Shown here: in pieces, positions 11,858 through 60,793 of the stretch | Numbering within the stretch: position 1 is the stretch's first letter | Layout of the letters: each line of letters starts with the position of its first letter | Source: an uncultured Veillonellaceae bacterium | GTDB taxonomy: Bacteria; Bacillota; Negativicutes; Selenomonadales; Selenomonadaceae | Assembly (NCBI GenBank): GCA_902801565.1 | Contig: CADCIX010000012.1 | Location: 1-64,000, forward strand | Length of the DNA: 64,000 bases | Direction: 5' to 3' | Program-made: the position numbers and the translations under genes | Notes under the pieces: generated by a model | Told to the model about the DNA's origin: nothing | Databases searched by the model: none | What the model saw: only the letters and a program-made list of their open reading frames with translations

Positions 11858-12538
11858 ATGCCCATCTACAATGCTCCCCTGATGAAAATCGACCCAAAGG
11901 AAACACGACGCTATGCCGGCCTCATGAAAGCGGAGAACTTTGAGGAAAGCCGCATTGAAGAAGCCTGTGAAGAAGCTCTTCTCTTGGCCATGCCGAAAGG
12001 AATCTGGGAGATATACGACTACGACTGCAACACCCAAAGGATAGCAACCGATCCCCCCTTCACCATCCTTGGCGAAAAAATAGGAGGGCATCTCGCGGGA
12101 TGCGACAAGGTCATCCTCCTTGCTGCCACCGTTGGCGAGGACATCGAGGAAACCGTGACAAAACGCTTCCAGAAGGGCGACTACGCCTTTTCCGTGCTCC
12201 TGGATGCTGCCGCCACAACGGCAGTGGAACAGATCGCGGATGCCATGGAAAAGGCCATCCGTCCCAAGGCTGCCGCCAAAGGCTATGACATGCGCTGGAG
12301 GTTCAGCCCGGGATATGGAGACTGGCCCCTGGAACAGCAGCCGGATCTCGTTCGCCTGAGTCATGCAGAGAAAATCGACATATCCCTTTCGGAATCCCTC
12401 ATGCTCATGCCGAGGAAATCCATCACTGCCATCATCGGATTGTACAAGAAAGACATCACAACAACAAAAGCTCCTGCACATACACCAAAGGGCTGCGCAG
12501 CCTGCGATAAGCTGGACTGCCCCTCCCGCAGGGCATGA
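11858..12538 (+). CDS. Methionine synthase reactivation-domain protein
   Basis: A 226-residue stand-alone protein resembling the AdoMet-binding activation domain that forms the C-terminus of E. coli MetH. Supporting blocks are RFSPGYGDWPLEQQ (compare the RxxPGYxxxP motif), CDKVILLAATVG and the C-terminal Cys pairs in GCAACDKLDC. It would help reduce and remethylate cob(II)alamin. The start is the ATG at 11858, with GAAGGAGG upstream. It is followed 32 nt later by a metH that lacks this domain, so the two proteins together make a complete, reactivatable enzyme. The C-terminal cysteines are unusual and might bind metal or an electron donor; that part is inference. Confidence 0.85.
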   Translation: MPIYNAPLMKIDPKETRRYAGLMKAENFEESRIEEACEEALLLAMPKGIWEIYDYDCNTQRIATDPPFTILGEKIGGHLAGCDKVILLAATVGEDIEETVTKRFQKGDYAFSVLLDAAATTAVEQIADAMEKAIRPKAAAKGYDMRWRFSPGYGDWPLEQQPDLVRLSHAEKIDISLSESLMLMPRKSITAIIGLYKKDITTTKAPAHTPKGCAACDKLDCPSRRA

Positions 12539-12570
12539 TATCGATACAACACAGACTGAGGAGGACTCAT

Positions 12571-14946
12571 ATGATCCATATATTCGACGGTGCCATGGGC
12601 ACCATGCTGCAAGCAGAAGGACTTGCATCCGGCGCCTGCCCGGAGTCCATGAACATCGAGCACCCCGATATTGTCCAAAAAGTGCATGAGGCATATATCG
12701 AGGCAGGTTCCACCATCATTGAAACGAACACCTTCGGCGGAAGCGCATTGAAACTGGCCCATTACGGCCTTGCAGACCGCATGGAGGAAATCAATATCGC
12801 CGCGGTAAATATCGCCAAAAAGGCCGCCGGGGGAAAGGCAAAGGTTGCAGGTTCCATGGGGCCAACAGGCCGCTTCATCAAGCCTCTGGGAGACCTTGAT
12901 TTCGAGGAAGCCTATCAGGTGTTCCATGAACAGGCCGCTGCCTTGGCAAAGGGCGGCGCAGACTATATCATCATTGAGACCTGCATCGACCTCCAGGAAA
13001 TGCGGGCAGCGCTTCTGGCAGCAAAGGATGCCTGTGACCTCCCGGTCATCTGCCAGCTTTCCTACAGCGAGGATGGACGGACGGTCACAGGAACGGATCC
13101 CCAATCCGCCGCCGTCACCCTCTCCGCCATGGGAGCCGACATCATCGGCGTCAACTGCTCCCTTGGCCCGGAACAGCTTGTGCCCATTGTCAGGACACTG
13201 GCCGAGAACTGCGATGTTCCCATCAGTGTCCAGCCCAATGCCGGCATGCCCTACCTTGAGAACGGGGAAACAAAATTCCCCATGGGGCCGGAGGATTTCG
13301 GCACCTGGGGAGCAAAACTTGTCGAGGCCGGCGCAACCTTTCTCGGTGGATGTTGTGGCACGACACCGGCTCATATCACGGCACTGGTCAAAGCACTCAA
13401 GGGCATTTCTGAACCGGAGCGGAAAAAAGAGGCCCGCCCCCTCATCCTCTCCAGCCGCAGCAAGACCGTTGCCATAGACAAAACCCTTCCCACGCGTCTC
13501 ATTGGAGAGCGCATCAATCCCACGGGACGCAAGAAGCTCGCCGCAGAAATCCGTGAGGGTTCCCTGCTCTCCGTGAAAAAGGAAGCCGTGAACCAGGTCA
13601 AGGCAGGTGCCCATCTTCTCGATGTGAACATGGGTGTCGGCGGCATCGACCAAAGTGCCGCCATGAAGCGGGCTGTCATGGAAATCGCCCAGATCACCGA
13701 CGCGCCTCTCGCCATCGACACAGGGGATGCCAAGGCTCTGGAAGCAGGGCTCCGCGCCTACCCCGGACGCGCCCTCATCAATTCCGTCACAGCGGAAACC
13801 AGCCGCCTGAAGGAATTCCTTCCCCTGGCAAAAAAATACGGTGCTGCCATCCTCTGCCTTCCCATCACAGATGATGGCGTTCCCAAGACGGCAGAAGAAC
13901 GCATCAAGGTCATGGGAACCATCCTCAAGGCAGCCAGGGAACAGGGGCTGCGGGATGGTGATTTCCTGTTGGATTCCCTTGTGATGACGGTATCTGCCGA
14001 TGCCAATGCCTGCCATGAGGTACTGGCCACCCTCAAGGGCTACCGGAAGGAGTACGGCTATCCCTCCACCATGGGACTCAGCAACATATCCTTCGGCCTT
14101 CCCAACCGTCCACTCATCAACAGCACCTTCTTCGCCATGTGCCTCGCGGCGGGACTGGATGCCCCCATCATGAATCCCTATGACGAGGCCATGCAGAACG
14201 CCCTCATGGCAAGCGCCGCCCTCCTGGGAAAAGATCCCAACGGGCTTGCCTTCAGCAAAAACGAGGCAAACCTCAGCGTCCCCAAAAAGGCTGCCGAGGC
14301 CAAGGAGATCACGACGGATGTCCTCTCTGCCATCAAGCTCGCCGTCATCGACGGGGAAAAGGACAGCATTGCGGAGCTGGTGGAAAAGGCCATACAGGAA
14401 GGCCATGATACCAATGAGATCACGGAAAAGAGCCTGACCGCTGCCATGACCGATATCGGCGAGGATTTCGGCGCAGGGCGCATGTTCCTGCCCCAGGTGC
14501 TCCTTTCGGCAGAGACCATGCGGGAAGCCTTCAACAAACTCAAGGAACTCCTCCCCGCCCAGAACACTGCCGACAAGGGAACCTTTGTCATCGCAACGGT
14601 GAAGGGCGACGTCCATGATCTCGGAAAAAATATCACAGGGGCGCTCCTTGCCAACAGCGGCTTCAAGCTCATCGACCTCGGCAAGGACGTGGATTCCCAG
14701 GAGATCGTCAAGGCCGCCATCGAAAACAGTGCCGATATCGTAGGCCTGTGCGCTCTCATGACCACCACCATGGTGCAAATCGACAAGGTCATCAAGGAAC
14801 TTCACGAAGCCGGCTCCAAGGCGAAAGTCATGGTAGGCGGAGCCGCCCTCACACAGGAATACGCCGATGCCGCCGGAGCCGATGCCTACGCTGCCGATGG
14901 CGTAAAGGCCGTAGAACTCGCCAAGGCAATGCTGGAAAATAATTGA
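12571..14946 (+). CDS. metH: Cobalamin-dependent methionine synthase, without activation domain
   Basis: A 791-residue enzyme that moves a methyl group from methyltetrahydrofolate to homocysteine through cobalamin. The homocysteine domain (about 1-285) has the zinc ligands Cys in GVNCSLGP and Cys-Cys in LGGCCGTTPAH. The pterin domain (about 300-560) has IGERINPTGRKKL. The cobalamin cap and Rossmann domains (about 590-791) have DVHDLGKNI, whose His ligates cobalt. E. coli MetH is about 1,230 residues. The missing part corresponds to the reactivation domain encoded just upstream. Start at ATG 12571, after GGAGG. No methylenetetrahydrofolate reductase gene is nearby. Confidence 0.94.
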   Translation: MIHIFDGAMGTMLQAEGLASGACPESMNIEHPDIVQKVHEAYIEAGSTIIETNTFGGSALKLAHYGLADRMEEINIAAVNIAKKAAGGKAKVAGSMGPTGRFIKPLGDLDFEEAYQVFHEQAAALAKGGADYIIIETCIDLQEMRAALLAAKDACDLPVICQLSYSEDGRTVTGTDPQSAAVTLSAMGADIIGVNCSLGPEQLVPIVRTLAENCDVPISVQPNAGMPYLENGETKFPMGPEDFGTWGAKLVEAGATFLGGCCGTTPAHITALVKALKGISEPERKKEARPLILSSRSKTVAIDKTLPTRLIGERINPTGRKKLAAEIREGSLLSVKKEAVNQVKAGAHLLDVNMGVGGIDQSAAMKRAVMEIAQITDAPLAIDTGDAKALEAGLRAYPGRALINSVTAETSRLKEFLPLAKKYGAAILCLPITDDGVPKTAEERIKVMGTILKAAREQGLRDGDFLLDSLVMTVSADANACHEVLATLKGYRKEYGYPSTMGLSNISFGLPNRPLINSTFFAMCLAAGLDAPIMNPYDEAMQNALMASAALLGKDPNGLAFSKNEANLSVPKKAAEAKEITTDVLSAIKLAVIDGEKDSIAELVEKAIQEGHDTNEITEKSLTAAMTDIGEDFGAGRMFLPQVLLSAETMREAFNKLKELLPAQNTADKGTFVIATVKGDVHDLGKNITGALLANSGFKLIDLGKDVDSQEIVKAAIENSADIVGLCALMTTTMVQIDKVIKELHEAGSKAKVMVGGAALTQEYADAAGADAYAADGVKAVELAKAMLENN

Positions 14947-15047: not shown

Positions 15048-18000
15048 TCAGAACTTCTTATAAAGTATGCGGCAGGCGTTCAGCACGCAGAGCACGGACA
15101 CACCGGTATCCGCAAATACCGCAGCCCACATGGAAGCATAGCCGAAGAGGCCCGCTGCCATGATGATGACCTTGACCACCAGGGCAAAGACCACGTTCTG
15201 CCAGGCCACACTGTTGACTGCCTTGGCAATGGCAATGGCCTTCGGGATGGCCCCCATCTCGGAATTCATGAAGACCACGTCCGCCGCCTCAATCGCCGCG
15301 TCCGCGCCACTTCCCATGGCCGCGCCCACATCTGCGCCGGCCAGCACGGGAGCATCGTTGATACCGTCGCCTACGAACATGACGCCGCCGTATTTGTTGC
15401 GCAGGGCGTTCATTTCTTTCAGCTTGTCCTGGGGCAGGAGTTCCGCCCGCACTTCCTGAATACCGGCGACACTTGCCACGGCTTCCGCTTCCCTCCGGGC
15501 ATCGCCGGTGAGCATGACCGTTGTCAGGCCCAGCCCGGCAATCTCTGCCACGGCCTGTTTGGCATCCTCCTTCAAAGTATCGTTGATGAAGATGTTGCCC
15601 AGGAATGTCCCATTCTTTGCCACCAGCACTTCGCTGCCGTAAGCTGCAGGCTGGTAGGCACGGTAATCGATCTTGTAGCGGTCCATGAGGCGGGTATTGC
15701 CCACCAGGAGCACATCCTTGCCGAAATAGGCCACCAGCCCTTCACCGGCAATCTCATCAAACCGGTTCGGGCGCTCAATGGGCAGGTTCCTCTCTTTGGC
15801 CGCAACCACGATGCTGACCGCAATCGGATGGGTGGAAACCTGTTCCGCCCCGGCCGTTGCCTGCAGGATCTCATCCTCACTGGCACTACTGGTCGTGACG
15901 ACCCGCTGCACCACGAAGTTGCCCTTGGTGACGGTACCGGTCTTGTCCATGACAACCGCTGCCACATTCTTCAGCATTTCCATGGCGTTGCCGCCCTTGA
16001 ACAGGATGCCCAGCTTGGAACCGGCACCGATGCCCGCAAAGAAGGACAGGGGAACGGAGAGTACCAGAGCACAGGGACAGCTGATGACCAGGAAGGTCAG
16101 GGCCGTGTAGATCCATTTGTGCCAGTCGCCGGTGACCAGGGAAGGCACGATGGCCACCAGAAGGGCCAATGCCACAACGATGGGAGTATAGACCCGTGCA
16201 AAACGGGTGATGAATTTATCAATATAAGGTTTGTTGGCCGCTGCGTTTTCCACAGAATCCAGGATCTTGGTCACCATGGATTCCTGCAGTTCCTTTTCCA
16301 CGCGGATCTTCAGCATGCCGGAAGTGTTCACGCAGCCGGAGAGCACCTCGTCGCCGTAGGATTTGCGGACGGGCACCGGCTCACCGGTTACCGGAGACGT
16401 ATCCAGCAGGCTTTCGCCGTCGATGACAATGCCGTCCAGAGGGATGCGGTCCCCCACGCGCACCAGCAGGATGTCGCCCACCCGGGCTTCCGCGGAAGGA
16501 ATCACCTTCACATCTTCGCCAATCAGCAGATTGACCACTTCCGGGCGCATATCCACCGCGTCCATGATCTGGTCGCGGCTCCTGTCCGCAGCCCTGTCCT
16601 GGAACCACTCGCCTACCCGGTAGAAGAAGATAACGCCTACCGCTTCCTCCCATGCCTGAATGGCAAAGGCGCCCAAGGTGGCTACGGTCATCAGGAAGTT
16701 CTCGTCAAAGAATTCGCCCTTGGCCAGGTTCTTCAATGCGGTAAGCACGATCTTCCAGCCCAGGATCACATAGGCGATGACCAGGAAGTACATGTGGTAT
16801 TCTTCCGGCACCAGGCCCAGCCATTCCGTCACAATGAAGATGGCGCCGCCTACAACCAGTTCAAAAAGTTCTCTGGCGTTTTCTTTGAGGAAGGATTTCT
16901 TTTCCCTTTCCCGTTCCGGAACAGCTTCCTTGCGTTCCACGATGGTCACGCCATCCTCCACCTTGTCGGCAGCCTCCTGCATCCTGGCAGTGAGGCCGTC
17001 ATAGCTGCGGGCGGTAACACGCAGTTGGCCGGTAGCGTATACCAGCACCGCTTCCTCCACTTCCGGCAGGGCCTTGATGGCATCCTCCACCTTGCCGGCG
17101 CAGACCGCGCAGTCCAGGCCCTGCACCTCATAGGTGCGGGATTTCCCAGCGCCGAACTGCTCTTTTTCGGAGATCTTCACGCCCTCTTCCACCCGGTCGG
17201 CAGCCTCCTGCATGAGGGGCAGCAATCCATCGTAGCTGCGGGCGCTGATGCGAAGCTGGCCGGTCTCATAAACCAATACCGCTCCATCCACAATCGGCAG
17301 CGCAGCAATGGCATCCTGTACCTTTACGGAGCAGGCGGCGCAATCCAGGCCTTCCACTTTATACACACGGTATTTCTTCTGGGCAGTGGCGCGAACCCGT
17401 TCCGTAATGATGACGCCGTCCTCCGCTTTTTCGGCAGCCGCCTGCATTTTGGGCAACAGGCCGTCATAATCATCCGCGGTAACGCGCAACTGGCCGGTTT
17501 CGTAGACCAGGGTAGCCATCTTTACGCCGGGAATGGCGGCAATGGCATCCTGCACCTTGATGGAGCAGGCGGCGCAATCCAGGCCCTTTACGTTATAGGT
17601 GCGGAACTTGCTGGACGTTTCCGGTCCTTCATCCCTGGGAACCACTGTCACATAGGACAGGAAGGAACGGCAGATCTCCTGAAACACCGGCAGCATGGCG
17701 TCCGGATTCTTGGCGGAAACGCGGAGCTGTTTCGTGCTGTAGCTGACAGAGGAATAGGATACGCCCGGCAGGGACTTGATCTTATGCTCAATCTTCGAGG
17801 CGCAGATGGGGCAGTCCAGATTGATCAGGCTGTAAACGCGCTTGACATTGTCCGCATCCGGCATCCGGCACTTGCAGTGGGCCAGACTTTCCCCGCAAAA
17901 ATCGCAGTACTCTTCGTGGGAATTGCAGACCTCACAGTCACATGCGTCCGGATGGCCGGGCACATGCGCCTCATGGGTATAAGAAGCGTTGTGGTGCACC

Positions 18001-18335
18001 AGCTCATGTTCGCTGTGATCATGCACCTCGCAACAGCTGCAGCCATCACCGTGGTCGTGGTCGTGCCCATGGTCATGCCCGTGGTCGTGCCCGTGGTCGT
18101 GCCCGTGGTCATGCCCATGGTCGTGCCCGTGGTCGTGTTCATGGTCATGCCCATGGTCGTGTTCATGGTCATGCCCGTGGTCGTGCCCATGGTCATGCCC
18201 GTGGTCGTGCCCATGGTCATGCCCGTGGTCGTGTTCATGGTCATGCCCGTGGTCGTGTTCATGGTCATGCCCGTGGTCGTGTTCATGGTCATGCCCATGG
18301 TCGTGTTCATGGTCATGCTCGTGGTCGTGTGGCAT
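15048..18335 (-). CDS. Heavy-metal P1B ATPase with His-rich repeat tail and four HMA domains
   Basis: A 1,095-residue metal-exporting ATPase. Residues 3-96 are about 23 tetrapeptides His-Asp-His-[Glu/Gly], followed by a Cys/His-rich stretch (GDGCSCCEVHDH, CDFCGESLAHCKC). Four HMA domains follow, starting near residues 167, 245, 322 and 398, each with a CxxC site (LDCPIC, then three LDCAAC/LDCAVC). The ATPase core has TGEP, SCPCAL in the membrane, DKTGTVTKG, STHPIA and GDGINDAPVL. A Lys in the penultimate helix region (VVKVIIMAAG) and Asp in FADTGVSV point to the Zn/Cd/Pb (P1B-2) class. Ordinary CadA/ZntA proteins are about 700 residues with one or two HMA domains. AAAGGGGATGG precedes the start. 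It lies 67 bp after a MATE gene and may belong to the same metal-handling block. Confidence 0.92.
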   Translation of the reverse strand: MPHDHEHDHEHDHGHDHEHDHGHDHEHDHGHDHEHDHGHDHGHDHGHDHGHDHGHDHEHDHGHDHEHDHGHDHGHDHGHDHGHDHGHDHGHDHDHGDGCSCCEVHDHSEHELVHHNASYTHEAHVPGHPDACDCEVCNSHEEYCDFCGESLAHCKCRMPDADNVKRVYSLINLDCPICASKIEHKIKSLPGVSYSSVSYSTKQLRVSAKNPDAMLPVFQEICRSFLSYVTVVPRDEGPETSSKFRTYNVKGLDCAACSIKVQDAIAAIPGVKMATLVYETGQLRVTADDYDGLLPKMQAAAEKAEDGVIITERVRATAQKKYRVYKVEGLDCAACSVKVQDAIAALPIVDGAVLVYETGQLRISARSYDGLLPLMQEAADRVEEGVKISEKEQFGAGKSRTYEVQGLDCAVCAGKVEDAIKALPEVEEAVLVYATGQLRVTARSYDGLTARMQEAADKVEDGVTIVERKEAVPEREREKKSFLKENARELFELVVGGAIFIVTEWLGLVPEEYHMYFLVIAYVILGWKIVLTALKNLAKGEFFDENFLMTVATLGAFAIQAWEEAVGVIFFYRVGEWFQDRAADRSRDQIMDAVDMRPEVVNLLIGEDVKVIPSAEARVGDILLVRVGDRIPLDGIVIDGESLLDTSPVTGEPVPVRKSYGDEVLSGCVNTSGMLKIRVEKELQESMVTKILDSVENAAANKPYIDKFITRFARVYTPIVVALALLVAIVPSLVTGDWHKWIYTALTFLVISCPCALVLSVPLSFFAGIGAGSKLGILFKGGNAMEMLKNVAAVVMDKTGTVTKGNFVVQRVVTTSSASEDEILQATAGAEQVSTHPIAVSIVVAAKERNLPIERPNRFDEIAGEGLVAYFGKDVLLVGNTRLMDRYKIDYRAYQPAAYGSEVLVAKNGTFLGNIFINDTLKEDAKQAVAEIAGLGLTTVMLTGDARREAEAVASVAGIQEVRAELLPQDKLKEMNALRNKYGGVMFVGDGINDAPVLAGADVGAAMGSGADAAIEAADVVFMNSEMGAIPKAIAIAKAVNSVAWQNVVFALVVKVIIMAAGLFGYASMWAAVFADTGVSVLCVLNACRILYKKF
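18048..18329. repeat. 12-bp minisatellite encoding the His-rich tail
   Basis: About 23 tandem 12-bp units of the type CATGGTCGTGCC (plus strand), in frame in the metal ATPase on the minus strand. Units differ mainly at two positions that switch Glu/Gly or synonymous His/Asp codons. Length polymorphism between strains would keep the frame, since 12 is divisible by 3. Confidence 0.9.
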
Positions 18336-18402: not shown

Positions 18403-19731
18403 TTACTCTATCGGTTTCGTTTTTCGAAAAGCCGCGCCAAAAACGATCAGCCGGAAAAACCAATCCATGAACATGGCATACCATACCCAAAGTACGTCTT
18501 TCCCAAGCCATGCCACAAAGATATAGGCAAAACCGAGTCGAAAAACAAGCATCGCACTTATGGCGACCAGCATAGGAAAGACTGCCCTGCCGATTGCCCG
18601 GAAATAATACGGAAGCAGGAACGCAACGGGCCATAGGATCATCGCCAGCGAATGGGCCAGAAGAAGTTCCTCCGCCATATACGCGGACTGAGAAGAAAGA
18701 TGATAGAACCCGACCCAGATGTTCCTTCCAAAGATCATGACAGCACAGATGGGAAGCAGTCCTGCGTAATTCAGCAAGGTCAAGAGCTTTGTATAGTCTT
18801 TTGCCTGTCCCAGTTCACCCGCTCCCCTGCATTGCCCGACAATGGTCATCATGGCAGCGCCCAATGCGTTTCCTGGAAGATACAGGTAGGTCACCAGGTT
18901 GCCCGCCACAGCATAGGCGGCAATGGAAGCCGTGCCCAGCGTGGACACGAGGCTTTGGAGCAGCACTTTTCCCACATTGAACAGGCTGCTTTCCACGCCG
19001 CTTGGAATTCCGATGGAAAGGATTTCCCGCAGGATCCTCCCGTCCAGCTTGCATTGCCCGAAGTTGTCAATGCGAAGCGCATTGTCCGACGACTGGAGAA
19101 AGATACAAATGACAGCAGCGGCAACCATCCGGGAGAGCAGCGTAGGAATCGCAACCCCCTCCACACCCATGCCCAAGCCGAAAATGCACAGCACGTCTCC
19201 GGAAATATTCAGCAGGTTCATTCCGAGGGAAACCAGCATGGACAGCCTCGTATTCCCCACCGCGCGGAAAATGGAAACCGCCGAGTAGTAAATCGCCAGG
19301 AAGGGGAAAGAGACTGCGGTAAACCGCATATACACCTCCGCGTCCCGCATGACCTCCGGCGAAACCGTACCAAAGAGAAGATGAAGGATAGATTCCTCGC
19401 CGAAGAACAGCAGGAGGGACAAAAGAAGCATGAGGAACGTCGTCACAGAAAAGAGCTGTCCTCCGCTTTTTTTCGCCAAAGCATAATCTCCGCTGCCGAT
19501 GTACCTGGCGCAGACAACAGTCCCGCCCGCAGTCATGGCAAACAGGAATTGAAGAACCAAATGATTGATGGAATCCACCAGGGAAACGCCCGAAACCGTC
19601 GCCTCTCCCACAAAAGCAACCATCAAGACATCGACCATGCCGACCAAAACGGACAAAAGCTGCTCCACCAGCAGCGGCCAAATCATCTGCAAGAGCTGGC
19701 GCCAGCTGAACATTCCTTCCTTACCGCCCAT
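18403..19731 (-). CDS. MATE-family efflux transporter
   Basis: A 442-residue membrane protein with about twelve helices in two halves, typical of multidrug and toxin extrusion antiporters that use Na+ or H+. Diagnostic stretches are VDVLMVAFVGEATVSGVSLV in the first half and GLGMGVEGVAIPTLLSRM mid-protein. The start is the ATG at 19731 with GGAAGG upstream; a later ATG at 19713 has its ribosome site too close. It begins 13 nt after the stop of the ABC ATPase gene and so is probably the last gene of the importer operon. An exporter and an importer in one operon suggest cycling of a small molecule. Confidence 0.88.
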   Translation of the reverse strand: MGGKEGMFSWRQLLQMIWPLLVEQLLSVLVGMVDVLMVAFVGEATVSGVSLVDSINHLVLQFLFAMTAGGTVVCARYIGSGDYALAKKSGGQLFSVTTFLMLLLSLLLFFGEESILHLLFGTVSPEVMRDAEVYMRFTAVSFPFLAIYYSAVSIFRAVGNTRLSMLVSLGMNLLNISGDVLCIFGLGMGVEGVAIPTLLSRMVAAAVICIFLQSSDNALRIDNFGQCKLDGRILREILSIGIPSGVESSLFNVGKVLLQSLVSTLGTASIAAYAVAGNLVTYLYLPGNALGAAMMTIVGQCRGAGELGQAKDYTKLLTLLNYAGLLPICAVMIFGRNIWVGFYHLSSQSAYMAEELLLAHSLAMILWPVAFLLPYYFRAIGRAVFPMLVAISAMLVFRLGFAYIFVAWLGKDVLWVWYAMFMDWFFRLIVFGAAFRKTKPIE

Positions 19732-19744
19732 TGCACCATCCTTC

Positions 19745-20707
19745 CTATTTCGCAAACCGATGGCAGGCCACCTTGTGACCCGGTTCGATCTCCACTAGTT
19801 TCGGCTTTTCCTGTGTGCAGCGATCCTGGCAATCCGAACAGCGGTTGCTGAAGGGACAGCCCGGCGGCAAATCCAGAGGACTGGGGGGTTCCCCATTGAT
19901 GTTCTCGATTTTCCTGGAAAAATCCATCCTGACATCAAACACAGAGTTCAAGAGCGCCCTGGAATAGGGATGGCAGCAGACATCGGAAAGGCCTTCCCCC
20001 GGCATGACCTCCACAATATTGCCCAGATACATGACCGCCACCTGATGGGAAAAGGACTCGATGAGGGCAATATCATGGCAGATAAAGCCAATGGAAATGT
20101 TCTTCTCCCTCTGCAGACGGGTGACGAGTTCGATGATCGTTTTCTGCACGGAAACGTCCAGGGCACTGGTAGCCTCGTCCATGACGATGAACTCCGGCTC
20201 AAGGGCAATGGCCCGGGCGATTGCCACACGCTGGCGCTGGCCGCCGGACATGTTATGGGGGTACCGGTCCGCAAAATCCCCCGGAAGCTCTACCAGTTCC
20301 AGGAGTTCCCGCGCCTTCTTGTCCATTTCGGACCGGCGGATGCGGTCAAAGTTTAAGAGCGGCTCGCAGACGATCTCCTTGATCTTCATTTTGGGATTGA
20401 AGGATGTGGAGGGGTCCTGGAAGACCATCTGGATATGCTGGCGGTTCTCGTGCAGCTCTTTCCCCTTCATTTTCGTGATATCCTTCCCATGGAAGAATAT
20501 CTCACCCTCCGTGGGAGTGTCAAGGCTCACCAGGAAGCGCATGAACGTACTCTTGCCGCAGCCGGATTCGCCAACGATGCCCAGTGTCTTTCCCTTATAG
20601 AATTTCAAGTTCACATCATTGCAGGCGGTCAGCATGCGTCCGTCATTGGTAGGAAAGCGACGCGTCACATGACGCGCCTCAATCAGAAGATCCTTTTCAT
20701 CAAACAT
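19745..20707 (-). CDS. ABC transporter ATPase, DppF/NikE type
   Basis: A 320-residue ATP-binding subunit of a peptide/nickel-type importer. Walker A GESGCGKST, Q-loop QDPSTSFNP, signature MSGGQRQRV and Walker B FIVMDEATSALD are intact. The C-terminus is the oligopeptide-transporter tail with four cysteines (CPFSNRCSDCQDRC). Start at ATG 20707, after GGGAGG. It overlaps the end of the upstream ATPase gene by 8 nt, which indicates coupled translation. It pairs with that ATPase on the two permeases to drive uptake of the lipoprotein's ligand. Confidence 0.92.
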   Translation of the reverse strand: MFDEKDLLIEARHVTRRFPTNDGRMLTACNDVNLKFYKGKTLGIVGESGCGKSTFMRFLVSLDTPTEGEIFFHGKDITKMKGKELHENRQHIQMVFQDPSTSFNPKMKIKEIVCEPLLNFDRIRRSEMDKKARELLELVELPGDFADRYPHNMSGGQRQRVAIARAIALEPEFIVMDEATSALDVSVQKTIIELVTRLQREKNISIGFICHDIALIESFSHQVAVMYLGNIVEVMPGEGLSDVCCHPYSRALLNSVFDVRMDFSRKIENINGEPPSPLDLPPGCPFSNRCSDCQDRCTQEKPKLVEIEPGHKVACHRFAK

Positions 20708-21488
20708 AGCGTCTACCTCCCAAAGTCGGCACCGCATCCAGGAGAAGCTTGGTATACGGATTGGTTGACTGATGGAGTATGTAATCTCGTTCCCCCCGGT
20801 CAACGACCTCACCGTGCTTCATGACCACGATCTTGTCGCCCATATAAGCAGCTACCCCAAGGTTGTGGGTTACAATGACGATGCTGGTTCCATACTCGTC
20901 GCGAAGCTCCATGAACTGCCGGACAATCTGCGCCTGGGTCGTCACGTCAAGGGCCGAGGTGGGCTCATCGGCCAGGAGGAGCCTGGGCTGGTAGGTCATG
21001 CCCATGGCAATTCCGACGCGCTGGCGCTGCCCACCGGAAAGCTGGAAGGGATAGGAACGCATGATGCGGTCCCCATCCGGAAGACGCATCCGCTCAATCA
21101 TTTCGACGCCCTTCGCCCAGGCCGCCTTCCTGGAAAGTTTCTCATGGGTAATGATATATTCCACATAGCTGTCCCCGATCAGCCGCGTCTGGTTCATCAT
21201 GGTGCCACTGTCCTGAAAGATCATGGACACATCGAGGCCGCGCAGACCCCGCCATTCCTCATCCGTCAGGTTCAGCAAATCCGTGCCGTCGTAGGTAATG
21301 CTGCCGGCAGAAACTCTGCCCCCTCCGGGAAGCAGTCCCATGATCGCTCGGATCACGGTGGTTTTTCCGCTGCCGGACTCGCCAACGATACTGCAGATTT
21401 CTCCCTTTTCCAGACTCAGGCTGCAATTCTTTACCGTAAGGTTCTTGCCATAGGAAATATCCACGTTCTTCAATTCTAATAACGACAT
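20700..21488 (-). CDS. ABC transporter ATPase, DppD/NikD type
   Basis: A 262-residue partner ATPase. Walker A is GESGSGKTT, the signature LSGGQRQRV and Walker B LLLADEPTSALD. It is about 70 residues shorter than typical DppD/OppD because the C-terminal oligopeptide tail is missing, which is the length of NikD or CntD from nickel/cobalt importers. That length difference is a modest hint that the cargo is metal-related and not a peptide. It lies between the DppC-like permease (12 nt upstream) and the second ATPase (8-nt overlap). Confidence 0.9.
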   Translation of the reverse strand: MSLLELKNVDISYGKNLTVKNCSLSLEKGEICSIVGESGSGKTTVIRAIMGLLPGGGRVSAGSITYDGTDLLNLTDEEWRGLRGLDVSMIFQDSGTMMNQTRLIGDSYVEYIITHEKLSRKAAWAKGVEMIERMRLPDGDRIMRSYPFQLSGGQRQRVGIAMGMTYQPRLLLADEPTSALDVTTQAQIVRQFMELRDEYGTSIVIVTHNLGVAAYMGDKIVVMKHGEVVDRGERDYILHQSTNPYTKLLLDAVPTLGGRRYV

Positions 21489-21500
21489 GATATTCCCTCC

Positions 21501-22331
21501 TTACTCTTCCCGCGGGTCCAGAATATCCCGGAGATTATCGCCCAGCATATTGAAGACCACCACCGTAATGAAGATTGCCATGCCCGGATATATCATCATC
21601 CAGGGCGCCGACTGCATGAAGTCGCGGCTCTCGTTCAGCATGGCGCCCCATTCCGCCGCCGGCGGCTGCGCGCCAAATCCCAGGAAGGACAATGCCGCAA
21701 GCTCCATCATCATGCTGCCGATATCCGTCGCCGCCGTGATGACCAGCGTCGTGATCGTATTGGGCAGCATATACTTCCATAGCATGCGCCAGGTACCGGA
21801 CCCCGTGACGATTGCCGCATCCACATAATCCGTGTGCCGGACCTTCAACACCAGCGAACGCGCCATGCGCGCATACTTTGGCCAGGTCACCAGCATGATT
21901 GCAATAATCGCATTGCGCATGCTGGGCCCCATCATACCGGCTACAGCAATGGCCAGGACCAGGCCGGGAAAGGCAATCATCATATCGGCGAGACGCATGA
22001 TCGTCGCATCCACCCAGCCGCCAAAGTATCCGGAGACCACACCCAGAGCCGTGCCAACCACGAAAATCAATGTCACCAGGATGAAAGTGGAAGAAAGGGA
22101 TATCCGGGCGCCATAGAGGACACGGGCATAAACATCCCGTCCCATCTTGTCCGTGCCGAAAATATGCTCCGCATCCGGCGGCTTGATGGCACACTCCAGA
22201 CTGCCGGCCTCCGGGTCAATACCACCGGAAAGCATCGGGGCAAAGATAGCGATCAGGACAATGATGGATGCCAATATCCCAAAGAGGACGAAGCCCCGGT
22301 TGCTCAAAAATCGATTCTTTGTTGCGTCCAT
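21501..22331 (-). CDS. ABC transporter permease, DppC/NikC type
   Basis: A 276-residue inner-membrane permease with an N-terminal helix (VLFGILASIIVLIAIFAPML) and five more helices. It has the EAA-type coupling loop (GSGTWRMLWKYMLPNT) that contacts the ATPases. FGTDKMGRDVYARVLYGARI is the family signature. It starts 4 nt after the DppB-like gene stop and is followed 12 nt later by the ATPase. Confidence 0.92.
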   Translation of the reverse strand: MDATKNRFLSNRGFVLFGILASIIVLIAIFAPMLSGGIDPEAGSLECAIKPPDAEHIFGTDKMGRDVYARVLYGARISLSSTFILVTLIFVVGTALGVVSGYFGGWVDATIMRLADMMIAFPGLVLAIAVAGMMGPSMRNAIIAIMLVTWPKYARMARSLVLKVRHTDYVDAAIVTGSGTWRMLWKYMLPNTITTLVITAATDIGSMMMELAALSFLGFGAQPPAAEWGAMLNESRDFMQSAPWMMIYPGMAIFITVVVFNMLGDNLRDILDPREE

Positions 22332-22335
22332 ACAC

Positions 22336-23274
22336 TTACCTCCTCAGACGCATGCGGGGATCCACATAATAGTAGGAGATATCCACAATAAGATTGATCA
22401 GCATATAAATGACAGAAACCCACAGCACATATCCCTGAACCAGGAAATAATCGGCAGAGGTGATGGCCGCTACCGCAAGATTGCCCAGTCCCGGATAGGA
22501 AAAGATGATCTCGACCACACTGGTGCCGCCCAGCAGGGAACCTATGGACAGGCCCAGCATCGTGATCAGCGGCAGCAGGGAATTCGGAAGCACATTGCAC
22601 CACAGGATCTTTTTTTCCGATATGCCACGGGCGCGGGCACCAATCACATAGTCCGAGTGAAGCTCTTCCAGCACCGCCGTGCGGACCTGACGCGTATATT
22701 TGGCCGTCATGGCCACCGCCAGCGTCACCGCCGGAAGGATCAGCGACTCAAGGTCTGCGCCGGAGGAAACAACCGGCAGAAGTCCCATCTTTACACAGAA
22801 AACAAGGATCAGCATCAGGCCCAGCCAGAAGTTCGGGATGGACACGCCGAAGAAGGTGATGGCACGCACGAAATAATCGATGGGCTTGTTATGATGCACA
22901 GCGGAAATCACACCCAGTGGTACCGAGAAAAGCAGCATCAGTATGGTGGAAGCCAGAGTCAGCTTCAGTGTCGGCCACAGGCGGGCCATGAGCAGCTCTG
23001 ACACCGGTTTGTGCAGCATGAAGGATTCCCCAAAATTGCCCTGCAGGCAGTTGAGGACCCAGTCCTTGTACTGGATGAAAAAAGGCTTATTGAGTCCCAG
23101 TATCTCCCTGGTCTCTTCAATCTGTTCCGTCGTGGGCATGATGCCGCTTGCCGTGAACAGGTTGCGGGCAGGATCTCCCGGGGACAGATAGGTCAGCAAA
23201 AAGGTCAGAAAGCTGATGCCGATGAGTACGATCAGCATCTGCAGCAATCTGGAAAGTATCTGGTTCTTATTCAT
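22336..23274 (-). CDS. ABC transporter permease, DppB/NikB type
   Basis: A 312-residue permease. The N-terminal helix and LTYLSPGDPA are typical of DppB/NikB, and RARGISEKKILWCNVLPN is the coupling loop. The start is the ATG at 23274 after GGAGAG; the frame is open to 23319 with no ribosome site. A 46-nt hairpin separates it from the upstream substrate-binding protein gene. Confidence 0.92.
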   Translation of the reverse strand: MNKNQILSRLLQMLIVLIGISFLTFLLTYLSPGDPARNLFTASGIMPTTEQIEETREILGLNKPFFIQYKDWVLNCLQGNFGESFMLHKPVSELLMARLWPTLKLTLASTILMLLFSVPLGVISAVHHNKPIDYFVRAITFFGVSIPNFWLGLMLILVFCVKMGLLPVVSSGADLESLILPAVTLAVAMTAKYTRQVRTAVLEELHSDYVIGARARGISEKKILWCNVLPNSLLPLITMLGLSIGSLLGGTSVVEIIFSYPGLGNLAVAAITSADYFLVQGYVLWVSVIYMLINLIVDISYYYVDPRMRLRR

Positions 23275-23295
23275 TGTCGTTCTCTCCGTCAAAAC

Positions 23296-23341
23296 ATCAC
23301 AAGAGGATACAGCATGCACCGTATCCCCTTGCAGTTTCTTG
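23296..23341 (-). promoter_or_regulatory. Intercistronic hairpin after the substrate-binding protein gene
   Basis: Nested inverted repeats CACAAGA/TCTTGTG and GGATAC/GTATCC lie in the 98-nt gap between the lipoprotein and permease genes, without a T-run. Such hairpins often protect the mRNA 3' end, so that the binding protein is made in excess. Confidence 0.5.
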
Positions 23342-23372: not shown

Positions 23373-24971
23373 TTACTTCGCGCCGACGGGCTTGATCTCG
23401 TCGGTAATCCAGTAATAGTCAAGCGGATAAATGTGGGCATACCCAACCTTGTCTGTGTTGTAGACAATGCAGCTGTTATAGTAGCCGTCTACCAGAACGG
23501 CTGCCTCATCAATCAGGATCTGCTGCAGCTGGACCATAAGCTCCTCATACCGCTTCGGATCCATGGTAACCTGCAGTTCTTCATAGGCCTTGTCATAGGC
23601 ATCACTCTTGAAGCCGCAGTAATTATCCTTGTTCTTGCTCCACCAATTGCCCATGTAGGATGTATTGGAACCGGCAATCATGGTATTCCAGTTATTATTA
23701 TTGAGATCGTACTCACCGGCAACCAGCTTCTGCCACTGGTCGTCAGAACTTCCGTACTCACTCTTCACGCCAATGCCTATCGCCTTCAGATACTGGGTAT
23801 GGGCATCGGAGAAGTCATTCAGCAGACGGTTCGCATAAGAGACATAGCGGAGCTGGATGTTCTGTCCGTTGAGCTCGCGGATGCCATCGCCGTCCGTATC
23901 CTTGATGCCAGCATCGTCCAGCATCTTCTTGGCGCCTTCCGGATCGTATTCATCGGGATTCTTCAGCTGGTCAAAGCCATGCCCCAAAGAACTCGGGATG
24001 ACAGACGGACCGGGGCTGTACAGGCCGCCGATGGTGTTGGACTGGCAGATGGCCTTGTAGTCGATTGCCTTATGGATGGCCTGTCGCAGCGTCTTGTTTG
24101 CCAGCGGATGGCCTTCCTGCATATTCATCCAGCTGAAACCGCAACGGGTACCGGCAGTGACTTCCACCTTGAACTTCTTGTCCTCCTGCATGGCTTTCAG
24201 GTCAGCAACGCTCATGATGTTCTCCGCCAGATCGATCTGACCGGCGCGAAGCGCGTTGGCCTTGGCGGAAGCATCCCCCATGAACAGGATCTTGACCTCG
24301 TCATAAGGCGGCTTGCCGTTCCAGTAATGGGGATTGGCAACCATCTCATAGCCTACCTGGTCCTTGAAACTCTTCACCATGTAAGGGCCGGTGCCGATGG
24401 CGCCGGTGTCAAGGTTCTCGGATCCCGCAATGTCAAGGATGCACATGGAAGGGTCAGCCAGATTTGCCGGCATATCGGCATAGGCCTTCTCGGACTTGAT
24501 GGTAACAGTGCCCGCCGCATCGTCAGCCGTAACAACTGCCCCTTCATCCAGGAACTTGGTGGGATTGGTGGAGCCCTTCTTGCCTGCTTCACGAATCCAG
24601 TCCAGGGATTCCTTCACCTTGGTAGCCGTCATTTCCGTGCCGTTGCTGAACTTTACATCCTTGCGCAGCTTAAAGGTCCAGGTCTTGTAGTCATCGCTGT
24701 GGGTGGCAGATTCCGCCAGTTGAGGGACTGCCTTTACATTGTCGTCAAAGCGGAACAGCGTCTGTCCGACACCAAAACGGCTGCAGTTCCAAGCCGTGTT
24801 GACCTGAAGCGCAGGGTTGATCAGACCGTCGGAATACATCTGGCATCCAAAGGTCAATACCTTGCCGTCCTTGCCGGAATCCGCCGTCTGGCCGCCACAG
24901 CCTGCAATCACGCTGCAGGTCAGAAGGCCTGCTGCCAATAAGGAAGCGACTTTTTTGGAAAACTTTTTCAT
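23373..24971 (-). CDS. Substrate-binding lipoprotein (SBP_bac_5, NikA/DppA-like)
   Basis: A 532-residue extracytoplasmic binding protein of the family that serves peptide, nickel and metallophore importers. The signal peptide ends in the lipobox VIAGC, so the cysteine at about residue 25 is lipidated. Family blocks include ESATHSDDYKTWTFKLRKDV and FSNGTEMTATKVKESLDW. The ligand cannot be read from sequence. GGGAGGAAT precedes the start. It lies 102 nt after the first MATE gene, with only a weak hairpin between, so read-through from the cobalamin-riboswitch transcript is plausible. Confidence 0.93.
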   Translation of the reverse strand: MKKFSKKVASLLAAGLLTCSVIAGCGGQTADSGKDGKVLTFGCQMYSDGLINPALQVNTAWNCSRFGVGQTLFRFDDNVKAVPQLAESATHSDDYKTWTFKLRKDVKFSNGTEMTATKVKESLDWIREAGKKGSTNPTKFLDEGAVVTADDAAGTVTIKSEKAYADMPANLADPSMCILDIAGSENLDTGAIGTGPYMVKSFKDQVGYEMVANPHYWNGKPPYDEVKILFMGDASAKANALRAGQIDLAENIMSVADLKAMQEDKKFKVEVTAGTRCGFSWMNMQEGHPLANKTLRQAIHKAIDYKAICQSNTIGGLYSPGPSVIPSSLGHGFDQLKNPDEYDPEGAKKMLDDAGIKDTDGDGIRELNGQNIQLRYVSYANRLLNDFSDAHTQYLKAIGIGVKSEYGSSDDQWQKLVAGEYDLNNNNWNTMIAGSNTSYMGNWWSKNKDNYCGFKSDAYDKAYEELQVTMDPKRYEELMVQLQQILIDEAAVLVDGYYNSCIVYNTDKVGYAHIYPLDYYWITDEIKPVGAK

Positions 24972-25060: not shown

Positions 25061-25092
25061 GGCGCACCCTCCACTAACGCGAAGGGTGCGCC
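25061..25092 (-). terminator. GC hairpin overlapping the MATE gene stop
   Basis: Perfect 10-bp arms GGCGCACCCT/AGGGTGCGCC spanning the stop codon at 25074. No T-run follows on the minus strand, so termination is likely to be partial at best. Confidence 0.45.
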
Positions 25093-26405
25093 ATCCATGT
25101 GCCCTTCCGGTAATACCAGTACAGCATGGCACCTGCCGTGCCCCATGTGATGGGATAGACGGCTGCCAGCAGACGGATGTCATGGGCCATCTGCATGAAT
25201 CCGAACAGGATTGCCGTCCGGAGCAGGCATTGATTGAAGAGCACGATATACATGGGAACCACTGACAGGCCTGCGCCTCGCAGCGTGTCCGCAAAGGTTT
25301 CAAGAAACACATAAAAGAAATAGAAGGGAAAAGCGATCCAGATAATGGTGACTCCCATGTCAATGACGGCAGGGTCGGAGTAAAAGATGCCGAAGGTCTC
25401 CCGTCCAAAGTAGAGCAGGATGGCTGCCAGCACAAGGGAGTAACCCACGCCAAACCCCAGTGTCAGGCGAAGGCCGCGCTTCACGCGGTCATAGAGCCTT
25501 GCCCCCACATTCTGCCCCGCGAAAGTCATCATGGACTGCCCCAGAGCACACAGGGGCATGTAGAACAGAAGCTCGATACGGTAGTAGGCGGTGAAGGCCG
25601 CTATGGCCACCACATCGAATCCATTAATGAAATACTGTACGAATACATTCGAAAGGGTCACCACTACGCCCTGCAGACCCGCAGGCAGGCCGATGCGGAT
25701 GATCTCCCGCATCAATGGGACGTCCACTGCCAGTTTCGATGCATGCATGACCCCGCTTTTCAGCAGATAGTACACAGAAATGAGTGCCGCAAGCACCTGG
25801 GAGAGAACCGACGACCATGCCACAGCGAGAATGCCGTTCTCCATGTACACGATAAACAGATAATTGGTCACAACATGAATGATGCCGCACACCAGCTGGA
25901 TCAGCATGGGAGTCTGTGAATTGCCAAGAGCCCGCATGACACCCGCCGCCATATTGAAGACCAGCATGAATACCAGGCCGAGGAAGAATACCTCCACATA
26001 ATCAAAGGCATCCTGAAAGATGCTCGCCGGGGTATCCACCACACGCAAGAATTCGGAGGCGGAAAGCTCGCCAACAATGGTCAGCAGAACACCGCCAATG
26101 AGCCCAAGGGCCATCGACGTATGGATGGATTTGCTGAGCTGTACCTCATCCCTGCGTCCAAAGGCCTGGGCAATGACGACACCTGCGCCGATGCTGATGC
26201 CCGTGAACAGGTTGACGAGGGCCGAGTTCAAGAGCACGCTGGCCCCCACAGCCGCCGAAGCCTCCACACCCAAAAAATTGCTGACAAAGAGGATGTCGAC
26301 GGTGGTATAAAGCTGTTGGATCAAGCTGGCTCCCAAGAGGGGCATCGCGAACAGCAACAGCCTCCGGGCGATGGAGCCCTGGGTAAGGTCCAGAGTCTTA
26401 GCCAA
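25074..26405 (-). CDS. MATE-family efflux transporter
   Basis: A 443-residue exporter with the MATE signature start LDLTQGSIARRLLLFAMPLL and TTVDILFVSNFLG. About twelve helices are visible, with the second half from near residue 240. It begins at a TTG (26405) whose first bases overlap the end of the zinc-hydrolase gene by 8 nt, so its expression is tied to that gene and thus to the cobalamin riboswitch. The exported molecule is unknown. It is a different paralogue from the MATE at 18403-19731. Confidence 0.9.
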   Translation of the reverse strand: MAKTLDLTQGSIARRLLLFAMPLLGASLIQQLYTTVDILFVSNFLGVEASAAVGASVLLNSALVNLFTGISIGAGVVIAQAFGRRDEVQLSKSIHTSMALGLIGGVLLTIVGELSASEFLRVVDTPASIFQDAFDYVEVFFLGLVFMLVFNMAAGVMRALGNSQTPMLIQLVCGIIHVVTNYLFIVYMENGILAVAWSSVLSQVLAALISVYYLLKSGVMHASKLAVDVPLMREIIRIGLPAGLQGVVVTLSNVFVQYFINGFDVVAIAAFTAYYRIELLFYMPLCALGQSMMTFAGQNVGARLYDRVKRGLRLTLGFGVGYSLVLAAILLYFGRETFGIFYSDPAVIDMGVTIIWIAFPFYFFYVFLETFADTLRGAGLSVVPMYIVLFNQCLLRTAILFGFMQMAHDIRLLAAVYPITWGTAGAMLYWYYRKGTWMAHPSR

Positions 26406-27435
26406 TCTTCTTCACATCTCCCGGCACCGCATTGGTGTGAACATGGGTTTGCGAAGCCTGGGGCACATAGCCCTCCGGCAGTTCCGCGTAAGCGCAGAGC
26501 ACCCGGCCCGGGGTGATGGAAAAGGCCGGTGTCATATAGAGCATGATGCCGCTGAACTTGGCATGGAATTCCTCCTGTTTCTCACCAAAGAAATCAGTGG
26601 TATAGCCCAGCAACTCTCCCTTTTCCACCATTTCGCCGCTGTGCTTTGCGTGGTACCAGCAAGCCGGCCTGTCAGCCTCAAGGTATTCGATCCTGGTCAG
26701 TTCCTGTGGCGTGAAAGTGTGGAGATGACTGTGATCGTACCCGGGCGTCATGCCCACATGCTTCAGCACGTGCATGACATCATCCTTGTACGCGTCGATG
26801 TCCTCGCGGCAGCAGAATCCCGTGCCGCCGCGCTCCACAAGAATGCTGGGCACACCGTTGAGTGCGGCGCAGTTATACGCCCCCGTTGTCGCGGTGGAGC
26901 GGACCATGTATTCCACATTGATCTGGCTTGCAAGCTCCCGCGACTTATTATTGACCTCTTCCGAAGCGTTTCCGGGGAAGTAGGCATAGGGATGCAGATC
27001 CTCCTGAAGGTCGCCGCTGTGCAGGTCAAGGTAGTAATCCGCCTTGAGGATGAATTCATGCAGCAGGAAATCGGCGAGCTTATAGGTGCGGCTGAGGGTT
27101 GAGTTGCCGGGAAAGACGCGGTTCAGATTCAGTCCATCCTCGGGACCGAGCTCCGCCATGCGCGCCCAAAAAGCCGAAACATTCACCGGGTGCATGAGGA
27201 TGAGACAGCCGTGAATTTCTTCGGGATCCAGATCCCTGCCCAATTCCATGGACGCGGCAATCCCCGGATACTCGCTGCCGTGCACGCCGGAGGTAACCAG
27301 CACGGTGGGGCCGTCATATTTTCCGTTGATGAAGGTTGTTGGAATGGCATTTAACGTGCGCGGCACATCAACAAGCGTGCGAAATTTGGTGCATGGTTCC
27401 ACATGAAAATTCGAGAAACAGACAGTATGTAACAT
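26398..27435 (-). CDS. M14-like zinc hydrolase (succinylglutamate desuccinylase/aspartoacylase family)
   Basis: A 345-residue cytoplasmic zinc enzyme of the AstE/AspA branch of M14 carboxypeptidases. Zinc ligands are in GVHGSEYPG (HxxE) and in YYLDLHSGD (His). The catalytic Glu is probably in SILVERGG, and GLNLNRVFPG is another family block. The family cleaves N-acyl amino acids or small amide bonds. No signal peptide is present. AAAGGAGAAT precedes the ATG at 27435. It is the first gene behind a cobalamin riboswitch and two terminators, an unusual setting for this family. It may hydrolyse an amide in a cargo brought in by the downstream importer; that is inference. Confidence 0.85.
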   Translation of the reverse strand: MLHTVCFSNFHVEPCTKFRTLVDVPRTLNAIPTTFINGKYDGPTVLVTSGVHGSEYPGIAASMELGRDLDPEEIHGCLILMHPVNVSAFWARMAELGPEDGLNLNRVFPGNSTLSRTYKLADFLLHEFILKADYYLDLHSGDLQEDLHPYAYFPGNASEEVNNKSRELASQINVEYMVRSTATTGAYNCAALNGVPSILVERGGTGFCCREDIDAYKDDVMHVLKHVGMTPGYDHSHLHTFTPQELTRIEYLEADRPACWYHAKHSGEMVEKGELLGYTTDFFGEKQEEFHAKFSGIMLYMTPAFSITPGRVLCAYAELPEGYVPQASQTHVHTNAVPGDVKKIG

Positions 27436-27455
27436 ATATTCTCCTTTGTTTCAAT

Positions 27456-27484
27456 AAAAAAACCCTTTTCCCGCAAGAAAAGGG
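27456..27484 (-). terminator. Second tandem terminator of the cobalamin leader
   Basis: Read on the minus strand, CCCTTTT/AAAAGGG with an 8-nt loop followed by seven T. It ends about 10 nt before the ribosome site of the zinc-hydrolase gene. Confidence 0.85.
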
Positions 27485-27500
27485 CATAGTTATACTGCAG

Positions 27501-27530
27501 AAAAAAAATCCTGAACACCGCCAGGATTTT
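27501..27530 (-). terminator. First tandem terminator of the cobalamin leader
   Basis: Read on the minus strand, AAAATCCTG/CAGGATTTT with a short loop followed by eight T. This is probably the expression platform of the aptamer just upstream. Confidence 0.88.
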
Positions 27531-27607
27531 CCGTTACAGACGCATCTGCAAATCCCCATCCCCATCGCTCGCGGGTCACAGAAGCCTTGCGGGGCTCCCC
27601 CACAGGT

Positions 27608-27760
27608 TCCTACGGTGATTGTCAATCAGGCAGTTCTCCTGGCTCCAGGTCATCGCTCCCCCGTGCCTTCCCAAGGCTCTCGCCCCAGTGACATAACTAT
27701 ACGGGTTTGCTCTCTGCTACAGTGGCGGGACCGCGCCGGATTCTACCGGACTTCCCTATT
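27608..27760 (-). promoter_or_regulatory. Cobalamin riboswitch
   Basis: On the minus strand the conserved elements come in order: AGGGAAGTCCGGTAGAATCC, GCGGTCCCGCCACTGT, then CACTGGGGCGAGAGCC and TGGGAAGGC, and the B12 box GAGCCAGGAGAACTGCC (about 27645-27629). It is followed by two intrinsic terminators, so bound adenosylcobalamin should stop transcription of the zinc hydrolase, MATE exporter and, by read-through, the ABC importer. Confidence 0.94.
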
Positions 27761-27762
27761 AA

Positions 27763-27930
27763 GTCTTAGGAACTGTACATCAATAATCGCTTCATTCTGC
27801 TTGTCTGAATCCGCCATGGCTGCGTTGTCGTCGTTCGACATAGCCCCGCTATGACTCACTCCTCCGCCTTGTCATGACGAATCCATTCTGCGCATACTGT
27901 AGCGATTATTTTCGCCCAATTCCTTACGAC
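27763..27930. repeat. Divergent MITE-like inverted-repeat element in the riboswitch leader
   Basis: Imperfect terminal inverted repeats of about 29 bp (left GTCTTAGGAACTG..., right GTCGTAAGGAATTG... read inward), each ending in AATAATCGC. A central hairpin CATAGC/GCTATG follows a TGCGTTGTC segment. The layout and central segment resemble the CTAGTGTCCC elements at 55.7 and 60.4 kb. It lies between the promoter and the cobalamin aptamer. Confidence 0.6.
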
Positions 27931-27991
27931 ACCTGATCCAATCCATATTCAACTGTAACTCCTGCAGGAAAGTCCCTACAGATTTGAAACT

Positions 27992-28020
27992 ATTGTATCA
28001 CTTCCAAAGTCCCATGTCAA
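27992..28020 (-). promoter_or_regulatory. Promoter of the cobalamin-riboswitch operon
   Basis: -35 TTGACA (28020-28015), a 17-nt spacer and -10 TACAAT (27997-27992) on the minus strand. The transcript would have a leader of more than 500 nt before the first gene. Confidence 0.75.
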
Positions 28021-32713: not shown

Positions 32714-32723
32714 GAAACCAGAG

Positions 32724-32818
32724 ACTGTACGACTGACGGAAGTGGAGCACCACATGGGAGTACAGTGGGAAAAGCCGACCGTCTGGGCACTCATTGCCCA
32801 CGTGTCGGCTTTTTCGAT
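32724..32818 (+). promoter_or_regulatory. ZTP (pfl-type) riboswitch with terminator
   Basis: The conserved elements GACTGACGG, CACCACATGGGAG and GCCGACCGTCTGGGCA match the pfl/ZTP consensus. A terminator (GCCGAC...GGGCA against TTGCCC...TGTCGGC, then TTTTTC, 32774-32815) overlaps the last conserved block. ZTP/ZMP accumulates when 10-formyl-tetrahydrofolate is scarce; binding should prevent termination and induce the AICAR formyltransferase gene downstream. Confidence 0.88.
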
Positions 32819-60395: not shown

Positions 60396-60669
60396 GACCA
60401 GCGCTCCTTTCGCAAAACATTCACACATTTCCTAGTGTCCCACCTCGTTCAGAAACATAAAAATAATTGTTCGAGATGTAGTCAGATGCTAGGAAGAGGA
60501 GGGCGGCGTAGCGGTGGCTACGCCAACAACGAGGCGGGACACTAGCTCTATCATAGCTTTTTTTCCGATTCCTGTCAATCAATAGAAATGGAGGTCATAA
60601 ACTCTTGAAAATCTCTCAGAAAGTGATAGAATAAAGATGTCCCTGCACAGGGTTGGACAATTGCATATG
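60396..60669. other. Intergenic region with MITE copy 3
   Basis: Holds the MITE-like element (60432-60545) and then about 120 bp of AT-rich DNA leading to the TPP riboswitch. The riboswitch promoter was not clearly located; AAAATCTC/AGAATAAAG near 60605-60633 is a weak candidate area. Confidence 0.4.
60432..60545. repeat. MITE-like element, copy 3
   Basis: 114 bp, inverted relative to copy 1. It starts CTAGTGTCCCACCTCGTTCA, continues through AATAATTGTTCGAGATG, has the GGCGTAGC/GCTACGCC hairpin, and ends ACGAGGCGGGACACTAG. CTAG borders both ends. Confidence 0.85.
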
Positions 60670-60793
60670 AATGGGGAGCTTGCAAACAGGCTGAGAGGAA
60701 AGTGCGCCTTTCGACCCATAGACCTGATTTGGGTAATGCCAACGTAGGGATATTGACTTTTCTTGGGATTGCTGTCAGGCAATCCCTTTTTTG
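60670..60793 (+). promoter_or_regulatory. TPP riboswitch with terminator
   Basis: Thi-box elements ATGGGGAGC, GGCTGAGAGGA, GACCCATAGACCTGATTTGG and GTAATGCCAACGTAGGGA appear in order (60671-60751). They are followed by a terminator (GGGATTGC/GCAATCCC, 60765-60786, then TTTTTT). Thiamine pyrophosphate binding should stop transcription of thiSGHE. Confidence 0.96.

Follow-up and report, generated by a model that had tools for sequence, protein, structure and literature searches.

The analysis covered a stretch of 64,000 nucleotides (referred to here as the window) at the start of contig CADCIX010000012.1 of an uncultured Veillonellaceae bacterium (GenBank assembly GCA_902801565.1). A cobalamin riboswitch in this window is followed, on the same strand, by a run of nine genes that starts with a zinc hydrolase and ends with a heavy-metal ATPase (Table 1).

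Table 1. Elements of the leader and genes of the run behind it, in order of reading (positions in the window)
Feature	Position	Strand	Basis
Promoter-like site, TTGACA-N17-TACAAT, extended -10	27992-28020	-	Consensus scan, 11/12 matches; predicted
Cobalamin riboswitch aptamer	27612-27791	-	RF00174, 83.8 bits, E 3.7e-19
Predicted antiterminator, CCCGCGAG (27575-27568) with CUUGCGGG (27477-27470)	27470-27575	-	Minimum-energy fold
Proximal terminator-like hairpin, then eight T	about 27500-27530	-	Sequence; -9.6 kcal/mol
Distal intrinsic terminator, predicted, then T run	27462-27485	-	-13.0 kcal/mol
Hydrolase (HYD), AstE/AspA-family zinc amidohydrolase, 345 aa	26398-27435	-	PF24827
MATE exporter 1	25074-26405	-	MatE 160 bits; TIGR00797 above cut-off
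Substrate-binding lipoprotein, family 5 (NikA/Opp-like)	23373-24971	-	SBP_bac_5 254.6 bits
ABC permease B (Opp2B/NikB type)	22336-23319	-	NF045470 386.5 bits, cut-off 350
ABC permease C (Opp2C/NikC type)	21501-22331	-	NF045474 328 bits, cut-off 300
ABC ATPase D (NikD/OppD type)	20700-21488	-	ABC_tran
ABC ATPase F (NikE/OppF type); true start probably ~20707	19745-20812	-	ABC_tran, oligo_HPY
MATE exporter 2	18403-19755	-	TIGR00797 above cut-off
P1B-type heavy-metal ATPase, His-rich N-terminus, repeated heavy-metal-binding-like domains	15048-18335	-	TIGR01512, CPC motif

A covariance search for the conserved aptamer folding, set beforehand as the check on the claim that this is a genuine B12 aptamer with terminators, returned a full-length match (model positions 1-189, gathering score 31.5), and the same aptamer was recovered when the whole genome was scanned. 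Between the aptamer and the hydrolase gene an expression platform is predicted, consisting of the two terminator-like hairpins and a competing antiterminator; terminators had already been described in the sequence-only reading. In the minimum-energy fold the pairing of the antiterminator strands blocks the distal terminator, with which it is mutually exclusive in the prediction, and the proximal hairpin is still formed. Because the predicted fold pits the antiterminator against the distal terminator, control of transcription termination by the leader is plausible. An interspersed repeat of approximately 133 bp (27780-27912) separates the promoter-like site from the aptamer and at one end runs into the 5' edge of the aptamer match; elsewhere in the genome there are two further near-full copies (90-94% identity), as well as four partial copies. 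Elsewhere in the window a ZMP/ZTP riboswitch (32719-32795), a TPP riboswitch (60662-60767) and a T-box leader (7246-7006) were found.

The sequence-only reading had described a hydrolase and a MATE exporter behind the riboswitch, with genes overlapping by 8 nt. This description was correct, including the overlap (26398-26405), but the extent was not, as the run goes on to the ATPase gene: beyond the first MATE gene, the same strand carries a five-gene ABC importer of the NikABCDE/Opp type, a second MATE gene and the P1B ATPase gene. The gene spacing and the shared strand suggest that the nine genes form one operon. The next gene past the ATPase encodes a MetH-like protein (12535-14946) and is located on the opposite strand. 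The two MATE proteins scored 186 and 193 on TIGR00797 (cut-off 147). The ATPase scored 471 bits on TIGR01512 (cut-off 313.5) and has His repeats; its CPC motif together with the match to this cadmium-family model places it in the P1B-2 (Zn/Cd-type) class. A long repeat of the HDHGHDHEH type (18060-18335) encodes the His-rich end of the ATPase, and its length and pattern differ among relatives. No methyltransferase was found in the 64-kb window at E 1e-6.

The importer has the make-up of NikABCDE, as one cluster encodes a family-5 binding protein along with a pair of permeases and a pair of ATPases, and both permeases score above the curated nickel cut-offs for Opp2B and Opp2C. The binding protein was under every NikA, CntA and Opp cut-off, scoring 191 bits on Opp5A_nikA (cut-off 600), 165 bits on TIGR02294 (cut-off 393) and 98 bits on the CntA model (cut-off 800). 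Compared to E. coli NikABCDE, the five-subunit make-up is the same and the subunits are related, but the binding protein is only approximately 23% identical to NikA and in the alignment misses the equivalents of R137 and H416, which we take to be nickel-site residues (E. coli numbering). Moreover, a B12 riboswitch is present in front of the operon and no nikR was seen beside it. The staphylopine and pseudopaline (Cnt) systems also combine an Opp/Nik-type importer with a dedicated exporter, a plan that they have in common with the operon described here. In contrast to the Cnt systems, in which the CntA score sets the binding protein apart as well, the exporter here is of the MATE type and a hydrolase is present. 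A search of this genome for nicotianamine-synthase homologues with PF03059 gave no match, although that model may miss enzymes of the CntL type. No ligand-making biosynthetic gene was identified.

Besides that of the riboswitch operon, only one family-5 binding protein was found in this genome. It is encoded on contig C42, where a class I methyltransferase belongs to the same Nik-like cluster, and scored 356 bits on the nikA model, versus 191 bits for the protein of the riboswitch operon. Since it has no B12 riboswitch, contains a methyltransferase and has the higher nikA score, the C42 system is a better nickel candidate than the riboswitch operon. This bears on the alternative that the operon encodes a nickel or zinc importer, or one for several divalent metals, which happened to come under a B12 switch: its permease families are named for nickel, its ATPase matches the Zn/Cd/Pb type and Nik relatives often carry several metals, but within this genome nickel fits the C42 system better.

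The hydrolase scored 76.3 bits on PF24827 (cut-off 25) and keeps the zinc and catalytic residues of the AstE/AspA family (HxxE, H, NR and E); H52, E55, H139, E201, N105 and R106 were invariant among 9 relatives. The solved structures nearest to its predicted structure (mean pLDDT 74) were those of DoeB/EutE (Z 28.6), with CphZ further off (Z 21.7); this search reports likeness of fold only, and families outside its list stay possible. The curated equivalog cut-off for DoeB was missed (96.3 bits versus 402.7). The hydrolase has the fold and the conserved zinc and catalytic residues in common with DoeB/EutE, AstE/AspA and CphZ, but unlike those enzymes it has metal transport genes as neighbours. 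Judged by its family, it would act on the amide of a small compound resembling an amino acid. A literature search for an aspartoacylase or desuccinylase together with a cobalamin riboswitch or nickel transport yielded nothing relevant.

At E <= 1e-40 the hydrolase was present in 13 of the 189 genomes of the order, and a search of genome contigs gave 80 loci. It adjoins a Nik/Opp-type run of permease, permease, binding protein and ATPase in Negativicutes, Blautia, Lacrimispora, Lachnoclostridium and Merdimonas, and also in Tissierella, Geosporobacter, Enterococcus, Deltaproteobacteria, Sutterella and others. Close relatives (approximately 87% identity) contain the same genes in shuffled order, with the riboswitch before the hydrolase gene, an extra binding-lipoprotein gene or the gene for the family-5 binding protein. 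MATE genes recur as cluster members in Merdimonas (L076), Lachnoclostridium (L080) and a deltaproteobacterium (L057); a P-type ATPase is encoded in L080 too, as well as in L082 and L090. The hydrolase and the MATE exporter had been proposed as a system by themselves; such a two-gene system was rejected, as the conserved partner of the hydrolase is the ABC importer, of which both are companions. The recurrence of the hydrolase beside such metal importers across phyla suggests that it handles a molecule that carries metal. At three loci (L023, 10330-11343; L021; L026) an SBP_bac_6-type binding lipoprotein without an adjacent permease of its own adjoins the hydrolase; in L023 and L026 it is located between the riboswitch and the hydrolase.

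Fusions of the hydrolase with one or two methyltransferases were seen next to Nik genes in Blautia and relatives. In L065 (9230-11680) and L070 (9143-11599), each time beside a Nik-type importer, there is a methyltransferase at either end of the hydrolase, the fusion is partial in L069, and the methyltransferase gene is adjacent to the hydrolase gene in L076 and Succiniclasticum. These fusions suggest linked steps on one small molecule. The family of these methyltransferases, to which the one on contig C42 belongs, was found in 101 of the 189 genomes of the order.

A cobalamin riboswitch was counted only if cmscan confirmed it in the locus itself, and L090, which is the same place as L032, was treated as such. 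On this basis, 11 of the 36 loci with scanned genomes had a riboswitch within the fetched stretch, versus 0.79 expected (P 4e-11) under the assumption of uniform riboswitch placement; three Enterococcus loci and two Phascolarctobacterium loci are not independent. L050, L057, L062 and L070 were negative in the cmscan of the locus. The hydrolase and a Nik importer occur without riboswitch in Lacrimispora, Sutterella and Blautia, and in some close relatives (Succiniclasticum) the locus also has none. Mapped onto the tree of the hydrolase, the riboswitch label requires 7 changes, at least 4 of which are forced by supported branches. In L080 one riboswitch precedes a run of binding protein, permease, ATPase and hydrolase, and a second one lies directly past the P-type ATPase gene, in front of the gene for a CbiK lipoprotein. 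CbiC was encoded in all 11 riboswitch genomes of other lineages and was not found in the two Sutterella genomes tested. Because riboswitch-free Nik neighbours occur and these two Sutterella genomes are without CbiC, the hydrolase is not specific to cobalt. For the riboswitch-bearing loci, however, the repeated changes of the riboswitch association on the tree and the presence of CbiC, and thus of corrin synthesis, in every riboswitch genome checked both speak against a nickel or zinc importer under a chance B12 switch, and we consider that explanation unlikely.

The genome under study encodes CbiC as well; neither CbiM nor NicO was found in it. The absence of CbiM was rejected as proof of a cobalt role, since this evidence is weak: CbiM is above its family cut-off in only 47 of the 189 genomes of the order, versus 181 with CbiC, and 5 of the 11 riboswitch genomes of other lineages keep a full-length CbiM. 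As CbiM coexists with the module in those five, the module is no simple CbiM replacement. The genes behind the other cobalamin riboswitches of this genome include that of an exported CbiK cobaltochelatase, a CbiL-like gene accompanied by BtuFCD, one that was named methylmalonyl-CoA mutase-like by eye, and an unassigned gene. In L036 (7105-7401) the cobalamin riboswitch is followed by the methylmalonyl-CoA mutase-like gene, which would encode a B12-dependent enzyme; as repression of such a gene by B12 would be odd, this riboswitch is possibly an ON switch. In L035 (8889-9377) the riboswitch is followed by the gene for a 162-aa protein without Pfam match.

Corrinoid salvage, one of the roles offered by the sequence-only reading, would make cobamides or incomplete corrinoids the cargo of the ABC importer and an amide on them the target of the hydrolase, a CbiZ-like job. 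Such uptake and salvage is often under cobalamin riboswitches, the hydrolase family cleaves amide bonds, and the Enterococcus neighbours include a DUF4430 lipoprotein as well as a possible ECF component. The role became less likely because the genome has a separate riboswitch-controlled BtuFCD-like locus and because a heavy-metal P-type ATPase is part of the cluster, as it is in several lineages. Since, in addition, the importer belongs to the Nik/Opp type and its permeases are classed as those of nickel, and the hydrolase also lies beside Nik-type importers in the Sutterella genomes without CbiC, we regard corrinoid salvage as improbable.

The MetH-like gene that adjoins the operon could point to scavenging of methionine or other amino acids in B12 shortage: if MetH fails, peptides or N-acyl amino acids would be imported and the hydrolase would free the amino acid. 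Opp relatives carry peptides, AstE/AspA relatives deacylate amino acids, and cases are known in which an isozyme of a B12-dependent enzyme is under a B12 riboswitch (PMC3766115). This would leave the P1B ATPase, the MATE pumps and the neighbouring riboswitch-CbiK pair in L080 unexplained, however, and MetH was no recurrent neighbour in the clustering of neighbours, which makes scavenging very unlikely.

We consider it fairly probable that the operon serves B12-repressed cobalt acquisition, by a Nik/Opp-type importer with a ligand-processing hydrolase, an exporter and a metal-efflux pump. A role in cobalt supply, also among the earlier suggestions, fits the importer next door, the cobaltochelatase and B12 genes under sister riboswitches, and the recurrence in genomes that make corrins. 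From the RNA, the gene content, its conservation and the genome context, we infer the metal, the ligand, the reaction and the direction of each pump as follows. With sufficient cobalamin the aptamer would fold in response to its ligand and transcription would stop at the leader terminators; when cobalamin is short, the operon would be transcribed. The ABC transporter would then import cobalt, most likely complexed with a small organic ligand, and the cytoplasmic zinc hydrolase would cut an amide bond of this ligand for release or recycling. The MATE pumps may export the free ligand or its products, and the P1B ATPase may expel other heavy metals imported by mistake. The cobalt would feed the corrin pathway that this genome encodes.

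Secretion of a cobalt-binding molecule, the other role in the sequence-only reading, is possible. In its full form, which we put forward tentatively and hold to be rather doubtful, this would be a B12-controlled metallophore cycle dedicated to cobalt: a MATE pump exports a small amino-acid-derived chelator, the Nik-type ABC transporter re-imports the cobalt complex and the hydrolase dismantles it inside the cell. The SAM-dependent transferases fused to the hydrolase in Blautia may build or modify the ligand. A search of open-access papers found none on a cobaltophore or cobalt metallophore.

Importers of the NikABCDE family under B12 riboswitches were predicted earlier in C. tetani and D. hafniense (cited in PMC2667541), with the same importer family, control by RNA and a predicted role in cobalt uptake. 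In the account given there the transporter alone is named, whereas here a hydrolase, two MATE exporters and a P1B ATPase accompany it and the link to the hydrolase spans several phyla. A limited check, mostly of open-access papers, found no literature that names a hydrolase, MATE exporter or ATPase as companion of the importer, or that describes the fusions of hydrolase and methyltransferase in Blautia. Within that check, these companions and fusions are what is new here; control of the importer family by B12 riboswitches had already been predicted.

Beyond a few families, little is known of how bacteria that make B12 but have no CbiMNQO acquire scarce cobalt. The recurrent hydrolase, sometimes with a methyltransferase, beside Nik-type importers suggests that a metal-ligand complex is transported and that its ligand is chemically processed, and the hydrolase and methyltransferase genes are defined handles for finding this ligand.
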